NCBI RefSeq assembly: GCF_031583025.1
Contig: NZ_CP134062.1
Span: 4,092,001 to 4,156,000, forward strand
DNA length: 64,000 nucleotides
Origin: Mycobacterium sp. Z3061
GTDB lineage: Bacteria > Actinomycetota > Actinomycetes > Mycobacteriales > Mycobacteriaceae
Reading direction: 5' to 3'
Shown piece after piece: positions 1-10,721 of this stretch. The first letter of the stretch is position 1; each line of letters begins with the position of its first letter. Position numbers and translations under genes: made by a program. Under the pieces are notes generated by a model. That model had not been told where the DNA came from, made no database searches, and saw nothing but the letters and a program-made list of their open reading frames with translations.

Positions 1-1427
1 AGGGTGGCTGCGGTGACGATGTCGGCCGTCGGAAGCAGGACCGCGTAGTCCGTGGAGATGATCGACGCGACCGTGTTGACGATGTTCGCCGGTGTTGGCG
101 CGATCGGGCCCGGCGTCGGCCCCAGCAGTGCGGGCAACAAGTCGGGCCACAGGGGCGTGAGTGGGGGTGGTGTCGCGGAGATGCTCCGTAGATCCGCCAG
201 GAAGTCATGCACGCCCTGCTGCGCGCCCACCACCAGGGCTTGGGCAACCTGACCAGGGCTCACCGGTGGGAACAGCCCGAACGGAGTGGGCACGTTGGCC
301 GGGGTCGTCGACCAACCGTAGGCGGGGTCGCCGTAGCCGAGATTGACGATGACCCGCAGGTCCGGTTGCAGCAGATCGGCCAGCGGATTGCCGAGGAACG
401 GGATGATGCGCAGCGGGTCCAGCAGCGGCAGATTGGGGGTCGGAATCATCTTGTACGTGGTCATGGTCGGGCCTTGCGTGCCCAGGGTGAGGGCGGTATC
501 GACCTGATCCTGGGTCAGGTGCGGGTAACCGAAATGCACCGCGCCGATCCCGAAGAAGGCGTTCAGGTCCGACACGAGATTGAGGGGGTAGCGGGGAAAG
601 TCGGCCAGCCCGTCGTATTCCCGGGTGTAGATGGTGGTGGTGTACACGTTGTCCGGGGTCGCTCCGACCATGCTCACGCCGACCGACGGCAGGCTCAACC
701 CCACGAAGCGCTGCAGCAGGCCGCCGTTGGGGTTCATCGGGTCGCCGATCAGCACGAAGTCCAGATCGGCAGGGCTCGGGGCGCCCGCGCCCAGCGCCGC
801 GAGCTGTCGCATCTCCAGCGAGGCGATCTCGGCGCTCTGGGAGTAGCCGAAGACGGTGACGTGCTTGCCGTCGCCGATCTGCTGCAGGATCGCGTTGTGC
901 AGGATGGCCACGCCCTGCTGCACCGACGCGTCGAACGTCAGGCTTCGCACCCCGGTCAGCGGGTACAGCTGCTCGGGTGTGAACACCACCCGGGGCACGG
1001 CGCCGTCCTGCCTGATAAAAAGCTTGCTGACGGCGTCGACGTAGCTGTTCGGCGGGTTCGGGTCGCCGGTGCCACCCATGATCAGCGACACCAGCGGCTT
1101 GGCCGGCCCCAGCAGCGGCGCGGCGGGGCCGGCCACCGCAGCGGCGTTGGCCGCCTCGGCGTCCAGATAGGCGCGTGCGCCGGCGGCCAGTACGGCCGCG
1201 AACACGTCGCCGAAGGCCGCCGCTCGCGCGAGGACCGCCTGCGCTTCCCGGGCATACGCACCGAACAGTTCCGCGGCGGCCGCCGACACCTCGTCCGCCG
1301 CCGCTGCCGCCAGGTCGACGGTAGGACCGGCCGCCAGCGCTCTGACCTCACTGATCGCCGTGCCGATTCCGGCCAGCTCAGCGGTCGCGGCTGTCATCAC
1401 CTGAGGTTGCGTGGTCAGCAGTGTCAT
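1..1427 (-). CDS. PE family protein with PE-PPE (serine hydrolase) domain, 3' end outside window
   Basis: The frame is open from an ATG at 1427 to the window edge, giving at least 475 residues. The N-terminus (about 1-110) is an alanine-rich helical PE domain, the type VII secretion targeting module. From about residue 115 the sequence matches the PE-PPE alpha/beta-hydrolase domain, including GGTGDPNPP and a nucleophile elbow GYSQS near residue 193. That GxSxS form is typical of PE-PPE esterases. A GAGGTG Shine-Dalgarno lies just upstream of the ATG. It is divergent from ptkA. Known family members are exported and some hydrolyse lipid esters; the substrate here is unknown. The C-terminus and third catalytic residue are not visible. 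Confidence 0.88.
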   Translation of the reverse strand, partial: MTLLTTQPQVMTAATAELAGIGTAISEVRALAAGPTVDLAAAAADEVSAAAAELFGAYAREAQAVLARAAAFGDVFAAVLAAGARAYLDAEAANAAAVAGPAAPLLGPAKPLVSLIMGGTGDPNPPNSYVDAVSKLFIRQDGAVPRVVFTPEQLYPLTGVRSLTFDASVQQGVAILHNAILQQIGDGKHVTVFGYSQSAEIASLEMRQLAALGAGAPSPADLDFVLIGDPMNPNGGLLQRFVGLSLPSVGVSMVGATPDNVYTTTIYTREYDGLADFPRYPLNLVSDLNAFFGIGAVHFGYPHLTQDQVDTALTLGTQGPTMTTYKMIPTPNLPLLDPLRIIPFLGNPLADLLQPDLRVIVNLGYGDPAYGWSTTPANVPTPFGLFPPVSPGQVAQALVVGAQQGVHDFLADLRSISATPPPLTPLWPDLLPALLGPTPGPIAPTPANIVNTVASIISTDYAVLLPTADIVTAAT

Positions 1428-1527
1428 TGCGGGGCACCTCCGAAGCCGGCCCCCGCGTCTTGAGACACCGATTGTGACAAACCGGTGCCCGCCATGTCCG
1501 AACTTCGCGATCAACGACAATGAACAC

Positions 1528-2196
1528 GTGACAGGCTCGATAAACGCCGCGAAGGCCGAACTGGTCATCTTCGATCTCGACGGCACGCTGACCGATTCGG
1601 CCGACGGCATCGTGGCGAGCTTCCGGCATGCGCTCACCCACATCGGTGCCCCGATTCCCGACGGCGATCTCGCCGCCCGCATCGTCGGCCCCCCGATGGA
1701 CGAGACGTTCCACGCCATGGAACTCGACGGGCGCGCCGACGAGGCGTTCACAGCTTTCCGGGCCGAGTACGGCAGCCGCGGCTGGGCGATGAACAGCCTG
1801 TTCGACGGCATCGCGCCGCTGCTGGCCGACCTGCAGGCCGCCGGGGTGCGCCTGGCGGTGGCGACTTCCAAGCTGGAGCCGACGGCCCGGCGCATCCTCG
1901 CCCACTTCGAGCTCGACCAGCACTTCGAGGTCATCGCCGGCGCCAGTCCCGACGGCACCCGCAAGTCCAAGACCGACGTCCTGGCGCACGCGCTGGCGCA
2001 GCTCCAGCCACTGCCCGAGCGTGTCCTGATGGTCGGCGACCGCAGTCACGACGTCCACGGCGCGGCCGCGCACGGCATCGACACGGTGGTGGTCGGCTGG
2101 GGTTACGGGCGGGGCGACTTCACCGAACCGATCACGTTGACCGGGGTGACCCACGTCGAAACGATCGACGAATTGCGGAGGGCGTTAGGTGTCTGA
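1528..2196 (+). CDS. ptkA: HAD-superfamily protein tyrosine kinase PtkA
   Basis: This is a HAD-fold protein with motif I DLDGT (D16, D18 from the GTG at 1528), motif II TSK and motif IV GDRSHD near residue 171. It closely resembles M. tuberculosis PtkA (Rv2232), which autophosphorylates on tyrosine and phosphorylates the adjacent phosphatase PtpA. The stop overlaps the ptpA start by 8 bp, so the two are translationally coupled. The start is uncertain: in-frame GTGs also exist at 1474 and 1411, and the tuberculosis protein has a longer disordered N-terminus. The 1411 start would run into the divergent PE gene. No good Shine-Dalgarno precedes any candidate. Confidence 0.88.
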   Translation: MTGSINAAKAELVIFDLDGTLTDSADGIVASFRHALTHIGAPIPDGDLAARIVGPPMDETFHAMELDGRADEAFTAFRAEYGSRGWAMNSLFDGIAPLLADLQAAGVRLAVATSKLEPTARRILAHFELDQHFEVIAGASPDGTRKSKTDVLAHALAQLQPLPERVLMVGDRSHDVHGAAAHGIDTVVVGWGYGRGDFTEPITLTGVTHVETIDELRRALGV

Positions 2197-2683
2197 TCCA
2201 CGGCTGCACGTGACGTTCGTGTGCTCCGGCAACATCTGCCGTTCGCCGATGGCCGAGAAGATGTTCGCCCATCAGATCTCCGAACGCGGTCTCGGCGACC
2301 TCGTGCGCGTCACCAGCGCCGGCACCGGCAGCTGGCATGCCGGTGAGGGAGCCGACGTGCGGGCCAAGCGGGTGCTGCGCGACCACGGCTACCCCACCGC
2401 CCACCGCGCGGCTCAGGTGAACGACGACCACCTTGCCGCGGACCTGGTCATCGCCCTGGGGCGCAATCATCAGCGCTTGCTCCGGCAGCTCGGGGTCGAG
2501 GACGACCGGTTGCGGATGCTGCGCTCGTTCGACCCCCGCTCGGGCGCCCACACCCCCGACGTCGAGGACCCCTATTACGGGGACCACAGCGATTTCGAGA
2601 CGGCGTTCGTCGTGATCGAGGCCGCGCTGCCGGGTCTGCACGACTGGGTCGACGAGAGACTCGCGCAGAACGGGTACGGCTGA
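2189..2683 (+). CDS. ptpA: Low-molecular-weight protein tyrosine phosphatase PtpA
   Basis: A 164-residue LMW-PTP. The P-loop CSGNICRS carries the nucleophile Cys12 and Arg18, and the general-acid loop DPYYG carries Asp127. These correspond to Cys11, Arg17 and Asp126 of M. tuberculosis PtpA (Rv2234). In pathogenic mycobacteria PtpA is secreted into the macrophage and blocks phagosome acidification; its role in this organism is inferred only. The GTG start lies inside the end of ptkA behind a GGAGGG sequence, and the TGA stop overlaps the ATG of the following SURF1 gene by one base. The three genes therefore form one operon. Confidence 0.95.
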   Translation: MSDPRLHVTFVCSGNICRSPMAEKMFAHQISERGLGDLVRVTSAGTGSWHAGEGADVRAKRVLRDHGYPTAHRAAQVNDDHLAADLVIALGRNHQRLLRQLGVEDDRLRMLRSFDPRSGAHTPDVEDPYYGDHSDFETAFVVIEAALPGLHDWVDERLAQNGYG

Positions 2684-3513
2684 TGGCCAGGCGTTTGCGG
2701 TTCCTGCTGCGGCCGGGCTGGGTGGCGCTGATTCTGGTGTGCGTCGCGTTCACCTACCTGTGTTTCACCGTGCTCGCACCGTGGCAGCTGGGTAAGAACA
2801 CCAGGACCTCGCGGGAGAACCAGCAGATCGCCGACTCCCTGAACACGCCGCCCGTTGCTCTGAAAACCCTTCTGCCTCAGCAGGATTCGTCCGCGCCCGG
2901 CGCCCAGTGGCGGCAGGTGACCGCCACCGGGCACTACCTGCCGGAGGTCCGGGTGCTGGCCCGGCTGCGGGTGGTGGACGGCGAGCAGGCGTTCGAGGTG
3001 CTGATGCCGTTCGCCGTCGACGACGGGCCGACCGTGCTGGTCGACCGCGGCTTCGTGCGGCCCGAGCAGGGTTCGCACGTGCCGCCGATCCCGGCGCCGC
3101 CCACGCAGCCGGTGACCATCACCGCGCGGCTGCGCGACTCGGAGCCGGTGGTGCAGGGCAAGGACCCGTTCACCCGGGACGGCTATCAGCAGGTGTATTC
3201 GGTGAGCACCGGCCAGGTCGCGGCCCTCATCGGCGTGCCGCTGGCGGGGTCATATCTGCAGCTGGTCGAGAACCAGCCGGGTGGTCTCGGCGTCATCGGG
3301 GTGCCGCACCTGGACGCCGGACCGTATCTCTCCTACGGCATCCAGTGGGTGCTGTTCGGCGTGCTGGCGCCGATCGCGCTGGGCTATTTCGTGTATTCCG
3401 AGGTGCGTGCGCGGCGCCGGGACAAGCAGGGCCCACAGGCGCCTGCCGAGCAGAAACCGCCCACGATGACCGTCGAGGACAAGCTCGCCGACCGATACGG
3501 CCGCCGTCGTTAG
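2683..3513 (+). CDS. SURF1 family cytochrome oxidase biogenesis protein
   Basis: A 276-residue SURF1/Shy1 family protein, orthologous to Rv2235. It has the family architecture: a transmembrane helix at about 13-32 followed by PWQLG, a periplasmic domain with the RGF/RPEQ motif, and a second helix at about 216-238 before a charged cytoplasmic tail. SURF1 proteins assist heme insertion and assembly of aa3-type cytochrome c oxidase. The ATG overlaps the ptpA stop by one base, so it is the third gene of the ptkA-ptpA operon. Its 3' end overlaps the convergent cobD by 4 bp. Confidence 0.9.
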   Translation: MARRLRFLLRPGWVALILVCVAFTYLCFTVLAPWQLGKNTRTSRENQQIADSLNTPPVALKTLLPQQDSSAPGAQWRQVTATGHYLPEVRVLARLRVVDGEQAFEVLMPFAVDDGPTVLVDRGFVRPEQGSHVPPIPAPPTQPVTITARLRDSEPVVQGKDPFTRDGYQQVYSVSTGQVAALIGVPLAGSYLQLVENQPGGLGVIGVPHLDAGPYLSYGIQWVLFGVLAPIALGYFVYSEVRARRRDKQGPQAPAEQKPPTMTVEDKLADRYGRRR

Positions 3514-4502
3514 AGCCTGGTCGCCGAGCGTGATCTGAGGGCGGGAAAATCGCGAAATCCCCGCCCTGAGAACATGTTCGGTGCGACGCAAGCCAGCGCG
3601 GCCAGTGTGACGGCGGCCGCCTGCACCGTCCGCGACAGCCGCACCGCGCGGCGCAGGTCGCCCACGGTGGGCGTCCGGCCGTCGCCCAGCGTCGGCCGGA
3701 TCTGCAGTTCGTGGCGGTATTGGGTGGGACCGCCGAGCTGTACCCCGAGCGCTCCCGCGAAGGCGGCCTCGACGACGCCGGCGTTGGGACTGGGATGCCG
3801 GCTCGCGTCGCGTCGCCATGCCCGCACCGCACCGCCGGGTGAGCCCCCGACCAGCGGGGCGCACCCCACCACCAGCCCGGCAGTCACCCGCGCGCCGACG
3901 TAGTTCGCCAGATCGTCCAATCGTGCTGCGGCCCAACCGAATCGGAGGTAGCGCGGGGACCGGTAGCCGACCATGGCGTCCAAGGTGTTGATCGCCCGGT
4001 ACGCCAACACCGCGGGCGCGCCGCCCGCCGCGGCCCACAGCAGGGGCGCCACCTGCGCGTCGGAGGTGTTCTCGGCGACCGACTCCAGCGCCGCGCGCGT
4101 CAGGCCCGCCTCATCCAGGGCGGCCGGATCGCGCCCGCACAATGACGGCAGCAGGGCTCGGGCACCGTCGACGTCGCCGTCGTCCAGCAGCGAGGCCATG
4201 CGACTACCGGTACGGGCCAGCGAGGTTCCACCCAGCGACACCCAGGTCGCCAGCGCAGTGGCCGGGACCGGGCCGGCGCGATGTTGCAGCGCCGCACCGA
4301 GCCATCCGGCCCCGCCTACCAGCAGGCTGACGTGCAGCGCTCCGGCGGCTTTGCTGTCTCGATAGCTGACCCGTTCCACCTCGGCCGCCGCCCTGCCGAA
4401 CAGGGCAACGGGGTGGCCTCGGGCCGGGTCGGCGAACGTGAGGTCGGCCAGATAACCGGCGACAACGCCGAGAAAACGGGCCTGCCCCGCCGTCGAGAAC
4501 AC
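3510..4502 (-). CDS. cobD: Adenosylcobinamide-phosphate synthase CobD/CbiB
   Basis: A 330-residue integral membrane protein of the CobD/CbiB family, orthologous to Rv2236c. It attaches the aminopropanol linker to adenosylcobyric acid in late B12 synthesis. Family signatures are FADPARGHP near the N-terminus, AENTSDAQ, RAINTLDAMVGYRSPRY and HPSPNAGVVEAAFAG. The start is a GTG at 4502. The gene is convergent with, and overlaps by 4 bp, the SURF1 gene. No other cobalamin gene lies in the window. Confidence 0.93.
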   Translation of the reverse strand: MFSTAGQARFLGVVAGYLADLTFADPARGHPVALFGRAAAEVERVSYRDSKAAGALHVSLLVGGAGWLGAALQHRAGPVPATALATWVSLGGTSLARTGSRMASLLDDGDVDGARALLPSLCGRDPAALDEAGLTRAALESVAENTSDAQVAPLLWAAAGGAPAVLAYRAINTLDAMVGYRSPRYLRFGWAAARLDDLANYVGARVTAGLVVGCAPLVGGSPGGAVRAWRRDASRHPSPNAGVVEAAFAGALGVQLGGPTQYRHELQIRPTLGDGRTPTVGDLRRAVRLSRTVQAAAVTLAALACVAPNMFSGRGFRDFPALRSRSATRL

Positions 4503-4536
4503 CCGGGCAGCGTCTCACACCGGCAGTGGCCGGCGG

Positions 4537-4710
4537 CTAGATCACCACCACGACGACGAGCAACGTGATCAGGACGATGAACTGTGCCGCCAGCATCCAC
4601 CACATCTCGGGGACGTAGCGGTAGGCGGCCTGCGAGCGCCCGATCTGGAACAGATTGGTCAACTTGGCCGCACTGACATCGGGCTCGCCGACTGACGGTT
4701 CGATCGACAT
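4537..4710 (-). CDS. Small single-pass membrane protein
   Basis: A 57-residue protein from the ATG at 4708-4710. A hydrophilic N-terminal 30 residues is followed by a hydrophobic C-terminal helix that ends in a run of valines and an isoleucine at the stop. An upstream in-frame ATG at 4749 would add 13 residues; neither start has a clear ribosome site. The gene sits 35 bp upstream of cobD on the same strand and may be co-transcribed with it. I recognise no family. The tail-anchored layout and position favour a real gene over chance. Confidence 0.5.
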   Translation of the reverse strand: MSIEPSVGEPDVSAAKLTNLFQIGRSQAAYRYVPEMWWMLAAQFIVLITLLVVVVVI

Positions 4711-4808
4711 GTGTGCAAGATGCCCGTTTCTAGCCGGTCTAACCTTCATCCGCGGTGAAGTCGGTCACATGTGATGTGGTCTACTCGGACCATGACACGA
4801 GAACCGCA

Positions 4809-5624
4809 ATGAAGCGGCCGGTCACCAGGGTTGCCGACCTGCTGAACCCGGCGGCATTGTTACTGCCTGCGGCGAACGTGATCATGCAGCTGTCGTTGCC
4901 GGGGGTCGGCTACGGCGTGCTGGAGAGCCCGGTGGACAGCGGCAACGTCTACAAGCATCCCTTCAAGCGGGCCCGCACCACCGGCACCTACCTGGCGGTG
5001 GCGACCATCGGCACGGACGCCGACCGCAAACTGATCCGAAAGGCGGTCGACGTCGCGCACCGTCAGGTCCGCTCGACGCCGTCGAGTCCGGTGGCCTACC
5101 GCGCCTTCGATCCCGCGCTGCAGCTGTGGGTCGCCGGCTGCCTGTACCGCTACTACGTCGAGCAGCACGAGTTTCTGCACGGGCCGCTCGAGGATGCGGC
5201 GGCCGACGCCGTCTATCAGGACGCCAAACGACTGGGCACCACCCTGCAGGTGCCCGAGCGGATGTGGCCGTCCGACCGCGTCGCCTTCGACGAGTACTGG
5301 AAGCGATCCCTGGACGAACTGCGGATCGACCCGCCGGTGCGGGAGCACCTGCGCGGGGTGGCCTCGATGGCGTTCCTGCCCTGGCCCCTGCGCGTGCTGG
5401 CCGGCCCGTTCAACCTGTTCGCGACGACGGGGTTTCTGGCGCCGGAATTCCGCGCGATGATGCGGCTGGACTGGTCGGAATCCCAGCAGGCCCGGTTCGA
5501 GTTGCTGCTTTCGGCGCTGCGGGTGGCCGACCGGCTGATACCGCACCGGACCTGGATCCTGATCTATCGGATTTATCTGTGGGACATGAGGTTTCGCGCG
5601 CGCCGCGGCTGGCGGGTGGTTTAG
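4809..5624 (+). CDS. MpaB/DUF2236 family oxygenase-like protein
   Basis: A 271-residue protein of the oxygenase-MpaB/latex-clearing-protein fold (DUF2236), orthologous to Rv2237. Typical features are [12 protein letters not shown] and the helix [18 protein letters not shown], where family members place conserved His/Tyr residues near a heme or metal site, followed by [13 protein letters not shown]. The biochemical role is not established for this subfamily. I chose the ATG at 4809 because the family sequence begins there; an in-frame GTG at 4755 lies only 5 bp from the divergent gene. In M. tuberculosis this gene lies close to ahpE; here 17 kb separates them. Confidence 0.82.
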
Positions 5625-5688
5625 CGGGAACTCCACGACATTTCACCGGCGTGTCCCGTCGTCCAAGTCACAGTCGGCGGCAACCGCG

Positions 5689-6813
5689 TCAGCGCACCGT
5701 CGCGAAGAACTTCCGCACGTCTGCCACGAACAGCTCCGGTTGCTCGAACGCCGCGAAATGCCCGCCACGCGGCATGGTCGTCCAATGGGTGATGTTGAAG
5801 TTCGGCTCGCACCAGCGTCGCGGCGCCCGCAGGATCTCCTTCGGGAAAGACGCGACGCCCGTGGGCAACTCGACCCGGGTGGTGTCGCCCCACTTCTTGA
5901 AACTCTCCCAGTACAGCCGCGCTGAGGATGCCGCGGTTTCGGTCACCCAGTACATCATCACGTTGTCCAGCAACTCGTCTCGCGTGAGCACGTTCTCCGG
6001 GTGGCCGTCACAGTCCATCCAGGCCTGAAACTTCTCGACGATCCAGGCGAGTTGACCCACCGGGGAATCGACCAGCCCGTAGCCCACCGTCTGCGGCCGG
6101 GTGGACTGCTGCTTGGAGTATCCGGTTCCGTTCTTGCGGTGCTCGGCCAGCGCCGCCAGGGCCGACTGCTCCTCGGCGGTGGGATCGGCCATGGTCTCCG
6201 CGGTGGGCATGCCCAGCGGCATGTTGAGGTGGATCGCCACGCAGTTGCCCTCATTGCGGCCGATCTGGCTGGTGACGGCCGCGCCCCAGTCACCGCCCTG
6301 GGCGCCGTAGCGCTCGTATCCGAGGCGGGTCATCAGCTCTTCCCACACCAGCGCGATCTTCTCCACACCCCATCCGGTGCGGCCGGGTTTGCCGGAGAAT
6401 CCGTAGCCCGGCAGCGAAGGGCACACCACGTGGAAGGCGTCCTGCGCCCGGCCGCCATGCGCGGTGGGGTTGGTCAGCGGCTCGATGACCTTGTGGAACT
6501 CCACGATCGACCCGGGCCAGCCATGGGTGATCAGCAGCGGGAAGGCGTCGTCGTGCGGGGAGCGCTGATGAATGAAGTGGATGTCCAGGCCGTCGAACTG
6601 GTCCGTGAAGTGGTCGAAGCGGTTCAACGCCGCCTCGCGGGCCCGCCAGTCGTAGTCGTCGGCCCAGTAGGCGGCCAGATCGCGGGTGTAGCGCAACGGG
6701 ATGCCCTGGCTCCAGTCGTCCACGCACTCGGCTTCCGGCCACCGGGTGCGCACCAGGCGCGCGCGCAGATCGTCGAGTACGTCGTCGGGAACGTCGATCC
6801 GAAACGGCTTCAC
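5689..6813 (-). CDS. Epoxide hydrolase (EHN-domain, microsomal-like)
   Basis: A 374-residue alpha/beta-hydrolase with the N-terminal EHN domain (about 1-105) that marks microsomal-type epoxide hydrolases. The oxyanion motif HGWPGS is at 97-102, the nucleophile motif GGDWG gives Asp175, and the likely catalytic His352 is in RGGHFA. These enzymes open epoxides through an Asp-ester intermediate. The substrate is unknown. It lies 10 bp downstream of a small protein gene on the same strand. No close counterpart occurs at this point in M. tuberculosis. Confidence 0.88.
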   Translation of the reverse strand: MKPFRIDVPDDVLDDLRARLVRTRWPEAECVDDWSQGIPLRYTRDLAAYWADDYDWRAREAALNRFDHFTDQFDGLDIHFIHQRSPHDDAFPLLITHGWPGSIVEFHKVIEPLTNPTAHGGRAQDAFHVVCPSLPGYGFSGKPGRTGWGVEKIALVWEELMTRLGYERYGAQGGDWGAAVTSQIGRNEGNCVAIHLNMPLGMPTAETMADPTAEEQSALAALAEHRKNGTGYSKQQSTRPQTVGYGLVDSPVGQLAWIVEKFQAWMDCDGHPENVLTRDELLDNVMMYWVTETAASSARLYWESFKKWGDTTRVELPTGVASFPKEILRAPRRWCEPNFNITHWTTMPRGGHFAAFEQPELFVADVRKFFATVR

Positions 6814-6823
6814 CCGCTCGACC

Positions 6824-7018
6824 CTACTTCTGCGTCGCGTCCTTGATCAGCGTGCTGATCTGCTCGAGCAGTTCACGCATGTCGGCGCGCATGGCATCCA
6901 CCGCGGCATACAGGTCGGCCTTGGTGGCCGGCTGCTGGTCCGACGACAACGGCCGCACCGGCGGCCCCGATGTCTTCCGTGCTGCGCTGTCGCTCTGAGA
7001 ACCAGGTAGGTCACCCAC
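6824..7018 (-). CDS. Small protein with C-terminal helical segment, probably co-transcribed with epoxide hydrolase
   Basis: A 64-residue reading frame from a GTG at 7018. The first half is polar and Pro/Ser-rich. The second half (about 33-64) is an amphipathic helix with regular Leu/Met/Ile spacing, suggesting a coiled coil or oligomerisation segment. It ends 10 bp before the epoxide hydrolase start. No ribosome site is visible and I recognise no family, so the call rests on codon structure, helix pattern and spacing. Confidence 0.42.
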   Translation of the reverse strand: MGDLPGSQSDSAARKTSGPPVRPLSSDQQPATKADLYAAVDAMRADMRELLEQISTLIKDATQK

Positions 7019-7077
7019 GGTGTCGAGCGTGCCATACCACGCTGAACACGTCCAAAAGGGGCGCTGCTAGCCGCGGG

Positions 7078-7713
7078 TCACTGGCCCAGGCGCAGCTGCT
7101 CTCGAAGCTCCGCGTTCTCGGCCTGCAGCGCTGACAGTTGTTGGCGCAACGAGGCCAGATGCGGTTCGAGTTCGGCGGCGGTGAAGCGCGGGGTGATGTG
7201 CTGGTGACAGTTCCAGTCGTAGGCCTCGACGTCGACGACGACGGCGCGCTCGACGACCGCGTCGTAACTGCCTTCGGCGAGATCGGCCATCAGGGCGGGG
7301 TCGTCGGCGGCGGCGACGACACGGGCCCGGCCGAAGATTTTCAGGCGCCGCTTGTGCGCGTAATCCAGTGCGATGATCGCGACCCTGTTGTCGCCGGCGA
7401 GATTGCCGGTGCTGATGTATTGCAGGTTGCCGCGAAAGTCCGCCCAGCCGATGGTGTGGTCGTCGATGACGCGAAGGAAGCCGGGGGGCCCGCCGCGGTA
7501 CTGGACGTACGGCCAGCCCGTGGCTCCGACGCTGGCCAGAAAAAAGTTGTCGCGTTCCGCGAGATACTCCCGCTCGTCATCGGTCAGCGGGTCGGGGCCT
7601 GAAACAGCCTTGGCCTGAACACGTTTGCGGTCGTAGAAGGCGTAGCTGCCGTACTGATGCTGGACAGCTCTAACGTCATCGGTGAACGCGATCAGGCCGT
7701 AGTGTTTGCTCAT
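7078..7713 (-). CDS. Pyridoxamine 5'-phosphate oxidase-fold flavin-binding protein
   Basis: A 211-residue protein with a split-barrel FMN/F420-binding fold. Typical elements are FFLASVGATGWPYVQYRGGPPGF (cited here as residues about 58-80) and the core around RRLKIFGRARVV. The last 30 residues form a Leu/Glu-rich coiled coil that probably mediates dimerisation. Family members reduce or sequester flavin substrates; the reaction here is unknown. It starts at an ATG at 7713 and is divergent from the feo operon. Confidence 0.78.
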   Translation of the reverse strand: MSKHYGLIAFTDDVRAVQHQYGSYAFYDRKRVQAKAVSGPDPLTDDEREYLAERDNFFLASVGATGWPYVQYRGGPPGFLRVIDDHTIGWADFRGNLQYISTGNLAGDNRVAIIALDYAHKRRLKIFGRARVVAAADDPALMADLAEGSYDAVVERAVVVDVEAYDWNCHQHITPRFTAAELEPHLASLRQQLSALQAENAELREQLRLGQ

Positions 7714-7886
7714 CGTGCACCCGCCTATTCAGTGTGGCCTCGGGAGGACGTTGGTTCACGCGGCCGGGGGCCCACAACAACCCGCGCGGGGCATCGGTAA
7801 TGCTAACCGCGACGAGGGGGGTTGGCACGTCGGCCTGCTTCCGGACTTGAGCCGAGCGCCCGTCCGGCGGCCCTGCCACCGTTGCC

Positions 7887-7905
7887 CTTGGTGAGGCTGA
7901 CCTAA
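7887..7905 (+). promoter_or_regulatory. Putative IdeR (iron box) operator of the feo operon
   Basis: The 19-bp segment CTTGGTGAGGCTGACCTAA matches the mycobacterial iron box TTAGGTTAGGCTAACCTAA at 15 of 19 positions, including the AGGCT core and the CCTAA half-site. It lies 62 bp upstream of the feoA ATG and overlaps a possible -35 (TTGGTG, 7889-7894), 16 bp ahead of GATACT (7911-7916). Iron-loaded IdeR at this site would repress ferrous iron uptake. The match is by eye. Confidence 0.6.
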
Positions 7906-7910
7906 CTCCG

Positions 7911-7926
7911 GATACTCTTGGGTATC
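7911..7926. promoter_or_regulatory. Small inverted repeat GATAC-N6-GTATC at the feo promoter
   Basis: GATAC (7911-7915) and GTATC (7922-7926) form a perfect 5-bp dyad just after the iron box and across the presumed -10 region. It may be a second regulator site or simply part of the promoter. Confidence 0.3.
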
Positions 7927-7966
7927 ACCCACGTGCGGGCGTGGCCGCGATGCGGAGGTACCAACG

Positions 7967-8260
7967 ATGCCCAACAGCCGGTTGGAACGATCAGCGCCGA
8001 AGTCCCGGCCTGGTCAGGACGGCCGGTCGACGCTGGCCGACCTGGCTCCGGGCACTGGCGCAGAGATCGTCGCGTTCGCTCCGGCCATCTCGGCAGACGT
8101 GGCAAACCGATTGCGCCACTTGGGTTTCCGTCCCGGCATCCAGGTCACCAAACTACGCACCGCCCCACTGGGCGACCCTTCGGTGTACCGCCTGCTGGGC
8201 TACGACACCTGCCTGCGGAGGAGCGAAGCCGCCCAGATCGAGATCGCCGACCAGCCATGA
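7967..8260 (+). CDS. feoA: FeoA SH3-like ferrous iron transport protein
   Basis: A 97-residue FeoA with the SH3-like fold: the ADLAPGTGAEI strand, DVANRLRHLGFRPG and the C-terminal YDTCLRRSEAAQIEI. FeoA is a small cytosolic partner that modulates the GTPase permease FeoB. The ATG follows a good GGAGG at 7951-7955. The stop overlaps the feoB ATG (ATGA). About 25 extra N-terminal residues precede the domain. Regulation by iron is suggested by the box at 7887. Confidence 0.9.
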   Translation: MPNSRLERSAPKSRPGQDGRSTLADLAPGTGAEIVAFAPAISADVANRLRHLGFRPGIQVTKLRTAPLGDPSVYRLLGYDTCLRRSEAAQIEIADQP

Positions 8261-10197
8261 CCGCGTCCTGCCATGACGACGGGGGCGCGGTCGCGGCGCC
8301 ACCCGGCCAACCGCGCACGGCCCTGATCGGCAGCCCCAACGCCGGCAAGACCACCGTGTTCAACCACCTCACCGGCATGCGGGCGCGCACGGGCAACTAT
8401 CCAGGTGTCACCGTCGCCCGCCGGGTAGGCACCGGACGGTTCCGCACCGACGACGAGACGAAGACGTTCATCATCGAGGACGTCCCGGGGTGCTACAGCC
8501 TGCAACCGGTCAGCCCGGACGAACAGGTGGTGGCCGACCTGTTGCGCGGCGAATTGCCCGACATCCCCGCGCCCGAAGCCCTCGCGGTGGTCGTCGATGT
8601 CACCGTGCTGGAGCGGTCGCTGTCTCTGGTGTCTCAGGTCCTGGCGCTGGGCAAGCCGACGATCGTCATCCTCACCATGGGAGACGAACTGACGGCCCGC
8701 GGCGGGCAGCTGGACACCGAGCAGTTCGCCGCCGCGCTCGGGGTCCCGGTGGTCAGCGTCATCGGCAGCCGGGGCAAAGGGTTCGAACCGCTGCGGGCCC
8801 TGCTGGCGGCGCCGCAGACCTGGCAGCGGGTCGCCATCCCACCGCCCTCGGATGATGCCGAATACAACAGCTGGATCGCGTCGATCCTGCATGCCGGAGG
8901 ATACCGGGCGCCCGAACCGGACCTGCGCAGCGCGCGGATCGACCGGGTGCTGTTGCACCCGGTGTGGGGATCGCTGTTCTTCATCGCGGTGATGTTCGCG
9001 TTCTTCCAGATCATCTTCACCCTCGCGGCACCGCTACAGGATGCGATCGAGAAGTCGTTCGGCTGGCTGGGCACCCTGGTGGACGACAACGTCAGCAACG
9101 GTGCGGTCGCGGGTCTCCTCGGGCACGGGATGATCGGCGGCGTGGGCGCCGTGCTGGTCTTCATCCCGCAGATCGTGTTGATGTTCCTGCTGATCTCACT
9201 GCTGGAGAACATCGGCTACATGACGCGCGCCGCTTTCCTGGTGGACCGCATCATGGCGACCACCGGGCTCGACGGGCGGGCCTTCGTGGCGATGCTGTCG
9301 TCGCTGGCCTGCGCGGTGCCCGCGATCATGGCCACCCGCACCATTCCGTCGTCGCGCGACCGGCTCGCCACCTGCATGGCCGCCCCGCTGATGACCTGTT
9401 CGGCCCGCCTGCCGGTGTACATCCTGCTGATCGGGATGCTGGTCAGCCCGCAGGACCGGTGGGGGCCGGTCTCGCTGCAGGGCGTGGTCATGTTCGGGAT
9501 GTATCTGCTGGGCGGCGTCTCGGCGATGCTCACCGCCTGGCTGTTCAAATCGGTGGTGCTGGGCGGCGATCTGCTGCCCTTCTACATGGAGATGCCGCCC
9601 TACCGCTTCCCGTCGGTCAAGTCAGTGGTGATGACCGTGTGGGACTCGGCAAAGGTGTTCCTGCGCAAGGCCGGAACGATCATCCTGGGCACCTCCGTCG
9701 TGCTGTGGTTCCTGCTCAACCTGCCGGTGCGCACCGCGGAGACCGCCGGCATGGACCAGGCCGCGGCCACGGCCTACGTCGTCAACCACTCCTTCGCCGC
9801 CGGCCTGGGCAAAATTCTGGAGCCGGTGTTCGCGCCGCTGGGTTTCGACTGGCGGGTCTGCGTCGGGTTGATCGGGGCGATGGCCGCGCGCGAGGTGTTC
9901 GTGGCCACGCTGGGACAGATATTCGCCACCGGCGAATCGGGTGACCTGGTCTCGGCCACCCATTCGGCGGTGTTCACCTCCGGCCCGCACCACGGTGAGC
10001 TGGTGTTCACGGCGCCGACGATCATGGCGTTGCTGGTGTTCTTCGCTTACGCCCTGCAATGCATGTCCACCATCGCCACGCTGCGCCGCGAGACCAACTC
10101 GTGGCGCTGGCCGCTGACGGCGTGGGCGTACATGTTCGTGCTCGCCTGGGTGGCGGCTTTCGCGGCGCGGCACATAACCATGTGGCTGACGGGCTGA
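8257..10197 (+). CDS. feoB: FeoB ferrous iron permease with N-terminal GTPase
   Basis: A 646-residue FeoB. The N-terminal G domain has G1 GSPNAGKT (25-32), G2 in GNYPGVTV, G3 DVPG (75-78) and G5-like SRGKG. The membrane domain (about 240-646) contains the two gate repeats and the conserved ACAVPAIMATRT and CSARLPVY segments. It imports Fe2+. The G4 position reads TMGD (140-143), whereas most FeoB proteins have NMxD, so the guanine-recognising Asn is replaced by Thr. The ATG at 8257 overlaps the feoA stop; an in-frame extension upstream to 7918 overlaps feoA and is rejected. It is shorter than enterobacterial FeoB. Confidence 0.95.
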   Translation: MTASCHDDGGAVAAPPGQPRTALIGSPNAGKTTVFNHLTGMRARTGNYPGVTVARRVGTGRFRTDDETKTFIIEDVPGCYSLQPVSPDEQVVADLLRGELPDIPAPEALAVVVDVTVLERSLSLVSQVLALGKPTIVILTMGDELTARGGQLDTEQFAAALGVPVVSVIGSRGKGFEPLRALLAAPQTWQRVAIPPPSDDAEYNSWIASILHAGGYRAPEPDLRSARIDRVLLHPVWGSLFFIAVMFAFFQIIFTLAAPLQDAIEKSFGWLGTLVDDNVSNGAVAGLLGHGMIGGVGAVLVFIPQIVLMFLLISLLENIGYMTRAAFLVDRIMATTGLDGRAFVAMLSSLACAVPAIMATRTIPSSRDRLATCMAAPLMTCSARLPVYILLIGMLVSPQDRWGPVSLQGVVMFGMYLLGGVSAMLTAWLFKSVVLGGDLLPFYMEMPPYRFPSVKSVVMTVWDSAKVFLRKAGTIILGTSVVLWFLLNLPVRTAETAGMDQAAATAYVVNHSFAAGLGKILEPVFAPLGFDWRVCVGLIGAMAAREVFVATLGQIFATGESGDLVSATHSAVFTSGPHHGELVFTAPTIMALLVFFAYALQCMSTIATLRRETNSWRWPLTAWAYMFVLAWVAAFAARHITMWLTG

Positions 10198-10199
10198 GC

Positions 10200-10721
10200 G
10201 TGCCGGTTCCGCTGCTGCACCCGCAGGCCACCGATGACCCCCGCCTGATGCGGTGGCTGATCGGGACCCGGCAACTGTCCGGTGTGCCGCCGCAAGTGCA
10301 CGCCCTGATCGATGAGGGTGTGCTGGAACAGGCGGAAGTGGGTCCGGGCGAGGTGCGAACATGGTTGGGCGCCAACCGATCCTGGGATGTCGACGGACCT
10401 CGGGTGCGCTCGGCGTTGTTCGATGCGCTGTCTGCTCAGCCCGCCGAAGTCAGCGAACAAGAGTTGCGCGACGGGATCGACGAGATTCTGGCCAGGGAGG
10501 TGTCGCCGGTAGCCGCCTCACACGGGGGTGCGATCACGGTGCACTCGGTGCACGACGGTGTCCTCACAGTGGAGCTGACCGGAGCCTGCCTGGGCTGCCC
10601 GCTGAGCGGTCGGACCCTCGGCGACCTGATCACCCGCAGCGTGCAGGCCCGCTACCCGCAGATCCGCGAGGTCAAGGCGGCTCAGCCGCGCCGCGCGTGG
10701 CTGAAATTGAAACGACGGTAG
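10200..10721 (+). CDS. NifU C-terminal-domain Fe-S protein, third gene of the feo operon
   Basis: A 173-residue protein starting at GTG 10200, two bases after the feoB stop. Its C-terminal half (about 85-165) is a NifU/NfuA domain with the GACLGC motif, whose Cys130 and Cys133 would bridge a [4Fe-4S] cluster at a dimer interface. The N-terminal 85 residues are helical and unassigned. Canonical operons often have FeoC, a winged-helix protein, in this position. A Fe-S scaffold directly behind feoB could sense iron status or receive imported iron; that role is inference. Confidence 0.85.
   Translation: MPVPLLHPQATDDPRLMRWLIGTRQLSGVPPQVHALIDEGVLEQAEVGPGEVRTWLGANRSWDVDGPRVRSALFDALSAQPAEVSEQELRDGIDEILAREVSPVAASHGGAITVHSVHDGVLTVELTGACLGCPLSGRTLGDLITRSVQARYPQIREVKAAQPRRAWLKLKRR

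Follow-up and report, generated by a model that had tools for sequence, protein, structure and literature searches.

The gammaproteobacterial FeoABC system carries a small third gene directly after feoB in its operon. FeoC of Escherichia coli binds a [4Fe-4S] cluster without air, FeoC of Salmonella guards FeoB from proteolysis, and the cysteines of FeoC vary, with none in Vibrio (PMC8749426). A cysteine-rich protein of family PF12669 is encoded downstream of feoB in some species without feoC; it is described as an oligopeptide, mainly of Firmicutes and Bacteroidetes, that is sometimes a C-terminal domain of FeoB (PMC8749426). The role of FeoA and FeoC was called unclear in this 2022 survey of Feo evolution, which names feoC and the PF12669 gene as the genes after feoB and has NifU nowhere in its main text; a paper on FeoAB fusions does not mention NifU either (PMC8749426, PMC8980893). 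The present analysis concerns a 64-kb stretch of DNA from Mycobacterium sp. Z3061 (hereafter the window), positions 4092001–4156000 of a genome of 6.79 Mb in a single contig. In this window feoA and feoB are followed by a gene for a NifU-domain protein, here called nfu. We lean, slightly, toward the view that nfu encodes an Nfu-type iron-sulfur (Fe-S) subunit dedicated to this Feo system, which would act at FeoB as an acceptor or a regulator. The matches listed in the open-licence literature included no paper that ties an Nfu or NifU gene to feoB, and an earlier report in subscription journals is possible.

The junction of feoA and feoB is a 4-bp ATGA overlap, and two bases lie between the feoB stop codon and the GTG start of nfu. 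This spacing and the domain scores over the cut-offs (Table 1) confirm the tight feoA-feoB-NifU-domain operon that a sequence-only reading of the window had described. The FeoB_N, Gate and FeoB_C domains of FeoB (PF02421, PF07670 and PF07664) each score above the Pfam cut-off. Judged by these domains and by its equivalog model, the protein is a predicted ferrous iron transporter of the FeoB family, and its closest named relative is the FeoB of Mycobacterium gordonae CTRI 14-8773, with 98% identity.

The spread of the trio was followed from FeoB alone. The genome collection was searched with an alignment (A2) of ten FeoBs having nfu neighbours, and the best 80 of 211 relatives, chosen by FeoB similarity alone, were kept as named loci. 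By the nfu protein profile, nfu lies on the same strand directly after feoB in 77 of the 80. The pair thus recurs beyond the window, whereas its absence from every other genome was what the sequence-only reading had named as a refutation. The 77 loci fall into 24 named genera and 14 named families, with 16 loci unnamed at genus level and 11 at family level; a contig end truncates three of the 77, and in one, L184 of Cryobacterium breve, nfu is in two frames. A chance neighbourhood of nfu and feoB is rejected by this count. At a further locus, L181, the contig stops inside feoB, and another contig of that genome has the end of feoB and then nfu.

The spacing of the two genes is close throughout. 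Among 73 full-length named cases it is −4 in 35 and between −4 and +7 bases in 68, the start codon having been picked nearest the feoB stop, which leans toward small overlaps and gaps. The other seven of the 80 loci fall outside this count: L181, L239 and L242 have no nfu to measure, L184 has no start, and contig ends truncate L193, L216 and L244.

Samples of genomes drawn at the level of family, class and phylum were surveyed as well. FeoB_C exceeds its cut-off in 17 of 151 genomes of the family sample, with nfu adjacent in 11; the other six FeoBs have 32–35% identity. In the class sample FeoB_C exceeds the cut-off in 34 of 393 genomes, nfu being adjacent in 15 and in one case cut by a contig end (G772). 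Another FeoB is present in the remaining 18 genomes, of which all but G533 and G534 were read as DNA; of these 16 stretches, two (L160, L171) extend no more than 450 bases past feoB. At an E-value of at most 1e-18 the nfu profile matched 16 of the 393 genomes, and 15 of the matches are beside FeoB. The sixteenth, in G173, has no FeoB_C match, and its nfu copy (L147:3113–3760) lies in two frames, as a decayed copy or a sequencing error. Among the matches listed for the phylum sample (396 genomes), six are full-length and all six are beside FeoB (G000, G008, G036, G055, G208 and G467); that of G173 is not.

These counts bear on a different explanation, by which nfu would be a whole-cell Fe-S carrier, placed under an iron box for cells short of iron, that has its transcript in common with feoAB and does no work with FeoB. 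Such a carrier should be common without FeoB. Because 15 of the 16 strong matches in the class sample adjoin FeoB, and the sixteenth is in two frames, the nfu protein does not look like a free-ranging carrier. The dedicated partner that the sequence-only reading had proposed, as reader or store of the imported iron or its cluster, is partly supported: its genetic linkage to feoB is well supported, and the interpretation goes further than the linkage.

A phylogeny was built from 99 FeoB rows by a quick method, without loci L136–L157. On one side are 82 rows (the 80 named loci, G772 and the window), with a Shimodaira-Hasegawa-like approximate likelihood ratio (SH-aLRT) support of 99, and outside this branch are 17 actinobacterial FeoBs without nfu. 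The long branches of L168 and L159 leave the depth of the nfu-clade branch unsure. By this tree and the gene neighbourhoods, nfu goes with one actinobacterial FeoB clade. Two genomes have two feoB-nfu loci each, Mycolicibacterium litorale F4 (L179 and L211) and Dactylosporangium vinaceum (L195 and L213). In the FeoB tree the two M. litorale loci are placed far apart, suggesting that a transfer took place inside the phylum. Spread by plasmids was considered and rejected; five weak plasmid matches were found, none actinobacterial.

The FeoB of the window begins with a Cys/His tail (MTASCHDDGG; 8257–8340) just before the G1 motif. Cys or HH occurs in the N-terminal tails of 72 of the 80 clade loci, and Cys occurs in all 13 readable tails among the 17 other actinobacterial FeoBs. 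The tail is a possible metal site common to both FeoB clades. Its use as a special dock for Nfu was rejected, Cys being likewise present in the other-clade tails.

The trio has no fixed company. Both flanking genes, a PNPOx-type gene upstream (7078–7713) and an esterase/lipase-type gene downstream, are on the opposite strand, so in the window the trio stands alone. By neighbour clustering no other family is present in more than 9 loci. Downstream, 74 open reading frames (ORFs; 73 plus the ferritin ORF of L272 described below, of 95 listed, defined mechanically on the same strand within about 350 bases) have no Pfam family common to more than 3. A wider fixed operon was rejected on these two results.

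Table 1. Features of the feoA-feoB-nfu operon, in positions of the window
Feature	Position	Strand	Description
Iron box (DtxR/IdeR-type operator)	7887–7905		CTTGGTGAGGCTGACCTAA; 15/19 to the palindromic consensus
Candidate promoter	7888–7916	+	TTGGTG 7888–7893, 17 nt, GATACT 7911–7916; proposed by eye
feoA	7967–8260	+	ATG start, 97 aa; PF04023 53.6 bits (cut-off 23); GGAGG just upstream
feoB	8257–10197	+	ATG start, 646 aa; TIGR00437 443.6 bits (cut-off 315.65)
nfu	10200–10721	+	GTG start, 173 aa; Nfu_N-like and NifU domains; PF01106 57.5 bits (cut-off 27)
N-terminal half of Nfu, divergent Nfu_N domain	10200–10451	+	By hhalign profile comparison
HGG motif (H108) to CLGC motif (C130, C133)	10521–10598	+	Cysteines are presumed cluster ligands

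The GACLGC motif, named in the sequence-only reading as the cluster site of the third protein, is present, with the codons of C130 and C133 at 10587–10589 and 10596–10598. An alignment (A3) of the window protein and 68 of the 73 full-length named members contains 69 sequences, and the NifU domain PF01106 is found in all 69. W19, H108, G110, G128, C130 and C133 are invariant across the alignment. Among the 73 full-length named members GxCxxC is present in every one and HGG in 71.

The N-terminal half of the window protein has no Pfam match. When a profile of this half was compared by hhalign with the Nfu_N part of a single Maritalea NFU, the alignment had a probability of 84 (E-value 7.5e-6); among 50 controls (40 shuffles and 10 FeoB pieces) the highest probability was 1.2. 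The Maritalea NFU itself scores 42.9 bits for Nfu_N, and the profile of the whole A3 alignment matches it with a probability of 98.7 over 173 columns. A search of the source genome with Pfam Nfu_N at an E-value up to 10 found nothing, and a sequence search of solved chains matched no Nfu_N chain. The nearest solved chains by sequence are chloroplast NFU2, the S. epidermidis-type Nfu 1xhj and NFU1 homologues, all through the NifU domain only. The third protein is most likely, on these profile comparisons, a far-diverged two-domain NFU (Nfu_N and NifU).

Differences from FeoC are evident. The protein occupies the same place, directly after feoB, and the proposal in the sequence-only reading that a NifU-type protein stands in place of FeoC holds for position; it does not hold for homology, since a divergent NFU and not a FeoC relative is found there. 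FeoC belongs to another protein family with variable cysteines, whereas Nfu has NFU domains with CxxC and HGG and its cysteines are invariant in the 69 members. Neither FeoC (PF09012) nor PF12669 is among the 22 Pfam families matched by the 69 members at an E-value up to 5, a scan in which the HMMER filters drop most matches above about 0.1. In the source genome no FeoC match exceeds the cut-off, and three weak matches below it lie elsewhere in the genome. The third gene as a FeoC homologue was rejected on the PF09012 result. The PF12669 protein resembles the nfu product in being small, cysteine-bearing and encoded downstream of feoB; the nfu product differs from this oligopeptide as a two-domain protein of about 190 residues.

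The shared position raises the possibility that Nfu acts as a functional FeoC, that is, as an iron or redox sensor that only gates FeoB. Iron or oxygen would decide whether its cluster is present, and in one of the two states Nfu would close or protect the transporter. The cluster of E. coli FeoC and the protection of FeoB by Salmonella FeoC fit such a sensor (PMC8749426), and genes so closely coupled would be expected to yield their products in fixed amounts. Against it, known Nfu proteins transfer clusters (PMC8593673), and FeoC matches are lacking in the 69 members and, over the cut-off, in the source genome. The nfu-ferritin pair of genome G860, described below, stands without its feoB and is hard to reconcile with a gate, except if the other FeoB of G860 is the one it serves. 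We regard a pure sensor as rather unlikely. It is also one of the two forms that a dedicated subunit may take, and the likelihoods attached to the two overlap and do not add up to a whole.

The architecture of Nfu recalls better-known proteins of the same kind. NFU1 and the alphaproteobacterial Nfu (PF08712 and PF01106) have the same two domains in the same order; the present nfu differs from them in being tied to feoB, and Pfam Nfu_N matches only 2 of its 69 members (best E-value 9.6e-5). Proteins with Nfu_N and NifU domains function as general carriers, and this layout therefore speaks for the whole-cell carrier described above. Like Nfu, E. coli NfuA joins a C-terminal Nfu domain to a second domain with a possible role in partner choice. 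The front domain of NfuA is a degenerate A-type carrier (PMC8593673), whereas TIGR03341 matches the C-terminal part of the window protein only, with 36.1 bits (cut-off 269.35). According to a review, Nfu proteins carry clusters to several targets, and NfuA acts under oxidative stress (PMC8593673), which again favours a general carrier, as does the iron-boxed nfu without feoB in G860. Besides its rarity without FeoB, the two further NifU-domain proteins of the source genome (L008 at 4335258 and L009 at 2373572), both with Rieske domains, count against it. A whole-cell carrier with no part in FeoB function is, in our estimate, unlikely.

Two side observations concern relatives of nfu. One of the NifU-Rieske genes of the source genome adjoins, by eye, an apparent NiFe-hydrogenase large subunit gene. 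In [Pseudopropionibacterium] massiliense a second nfu-like gene lies upstream of feoA (L254:4095–4676, + strand), with 89 bits to the family profile. Its protein has neither the two cluster cysteines nor the HGG motif, and such a paralogue without cysteines next to the operon may point to a role in structure or pairing.

The operon also carries a putative iron-control element. The palindromic consensus of the iron box is presumably TTAGGTTAGGCTAACCTAA. The site at 7887–7905 is the only one in the 64-kb window with at least 15 of 19 matches, and 100 first-order Markov resamples of the window had none. The 15/19 match reported in the sequence-only reading was accordingly found again, as the best box in the window. 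Its overlap with a likely promoter stands in part: the TTGGTG and GATACT elements seen by eye are possible, but a sigma-70 consensus scan reported no promoter at its threshold, the candidate at 7888–7916 included. Another iron-box-like site of 14/19 lies at 515–533 of the window, where about 0.06 sites of at least 14/19 are expected per 64 kb from the Markov resamples; as a second operator it was rejected, being inside an ORF.

The conservation of the box was examined in the 300 bases upstream of the FeoA domain, taking the best site per locus, for 78 of the 80 named loci; the two others have no FeoA match. (The feoA scan as a whole left out 7 of 120 loci, L147, which has no feoB, and six without a FeoA match.) The best box upstream of feoA has at least 13/19 matches in 63 of the 78 loci, at least 14 in 50 and at least 15 in 24. 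In first-order resamples of the same stretches (n=2340) these levels are reached in 0.6%, 0.13% and none, respectively. Among 2078 other stretches of the scanned loci, 0.6% reach at least 13/19, and two stretches (0.1%) reach 16/19. The source genome has two DtxR-family proteins by PF02742. Iron-box control, as claimed in the sequence-only reading, is thus supported by conservation of the box across the clade, and the box at the candidate promoter, its conservation in relatives and the presence of DtxR-family proteins support a fit of the operon to an IdeR/DtxR regulon. In the other FeoB clade, which has no nfu, 9 of 16 loci have a box of at least 13/19. Since those loci are often boxed too, iron control does not seem special to the nfu clade.

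Two genomes link nfu with ferritin. G859, the home of L239, has a second Feo operon (L272:3788–6800, − strand) in the order feoA, feoB, nfu, ferritin; its feoB is 75% identical to that of the window, and the ferritin gene lies within about 45 bases of the nfu match. In G860, the home of L242, a nfu-ferritin pair without feoB (L273:4156–5263, + strand) lies behind a 17/19 iron box that is identical, letter for letter, to the box before feoA in L272. The genes upstream of the pair are for heme oxygenase and phytochrome. The two ferritins match PF00210 with E-values of 2.1e-31 (G859) and 1.5e-30 (G860) and are 91% identical. The arrangement in G860 looks like a loss of feoAB from between the box and nfu. 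By its gene order, G860 shows that nfu can remain after the box when feoB is absent and can be associated with storage.

The same loci would suit an Fe(II) chaperone that passes imported iron from FeoB to ferritin for storage, as the ferritin gene follows nfu behind the same 17/19 box in both. The arrangement is limited to these two genomes with their closely similar ferritins; none of the 73 other scanned downstream ORFs matched ferritin, and the ferritin query matched no other locus in the set. To our knowledge, the two-cysteine site of Nfu is known for clusters and not for mononuclear iron, which also counts against such a chaperone. We consider it very improbable. The ferritin gene after nfu in one genome and the nfu-ferritin pair in another are the sole hint toward storage, and not a general one.

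The view of Nfu as a subunit dedicated to Feo is preferred because of the linkage, the FeoB clade, the boxes, the invariant cysteines, the close spacing and the ferritin cases. Several points weigh against it. The label "nfu beside feoB" requires three changes on the FeoB tree and not one, because, besides the change at the clade itself, L181 (where the contig ends) and the L239/L242 pair are scored as being without nfu. L239 and L242 have another gene after feoB, nfu being elsewhere in both genomes. The FeoBs of the other clade lack nfu, which is therefore not a general requirement of Fe(II) import. A box of 13/19 is missing in 15 of the 78 loci. The nfu of G860, beside ferritin without feoB, can act away from feoB, and this genome keeps another FeoB. 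No Nfu-FeoB fusion was found among the loci scanned with the nfu profile, and this family-defining profile was built from feoB-adjacent members only. The two-frame nfu of L184 (about 6832–7477) stands beside an open feoB, by decay of the gene or by a sequencing error. Finally, by simple Nei-Gojobori (NG86) counts, the ratio of nonsynonymous to synonymous substitution rates (dN/dS) of nfu is 0.18–0.28 against four near relatives, compared with 0.08–0.11 for FeoB, and 0.40 against two farther relatives, compared with 0.26–0.27. By these ratios nfu is kept by purifying selection, under weaker constraint than FeoB.

A working model for a dedicated Nfu can be proposed. When iron is ample, a DtxR/IdeR-family repressor with Fe(II) would shut the operon. 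When iron is needed, FeoA, FeoB and Nfu would be made together by coupled translation. Nfu is probably a dimer with a [4Fe-4S] cluster between its two CxxC pairs, and it may work at the inner face of FeoB. There it could take up the consequence of import, the new iron being used for building or delivering clusters. Alternatively, it could report import, apo or holo Nfu altering the activity of FeoB. Nfu would then perform the function proposed in gammaproteobacteria for FeoC, likewise a small protein that can bind an Fe-S cluster.

A broader statement can be made only tentatively, and we put it somewhat short of an even chance. The actinobacterial FeoB clade would be a three-part machine with Nfu, in which import is coupled at the membrane to Fe-S assembly, to storage or to a cluster-based gate, and FeoC and Nfu, two unrelated proteins, would each have come to supply FeoB with an Fe-S site independently. 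The trio itself offers a natural second solution in actinobacteria, where an Fe-S protein of another family occupies the FeoC slot. Its presence in many actinobacteria opens the unclear role of the third Feo protein to new tests. Should Nfu bind FeoB, the Feo system would repeatedly call for an Fe-S site on FeoB, and the site brought by FeoC would be no accident. Without such binding, the operon would nonetheless identify, in many genera, an Fe-S carrier under an iron box.

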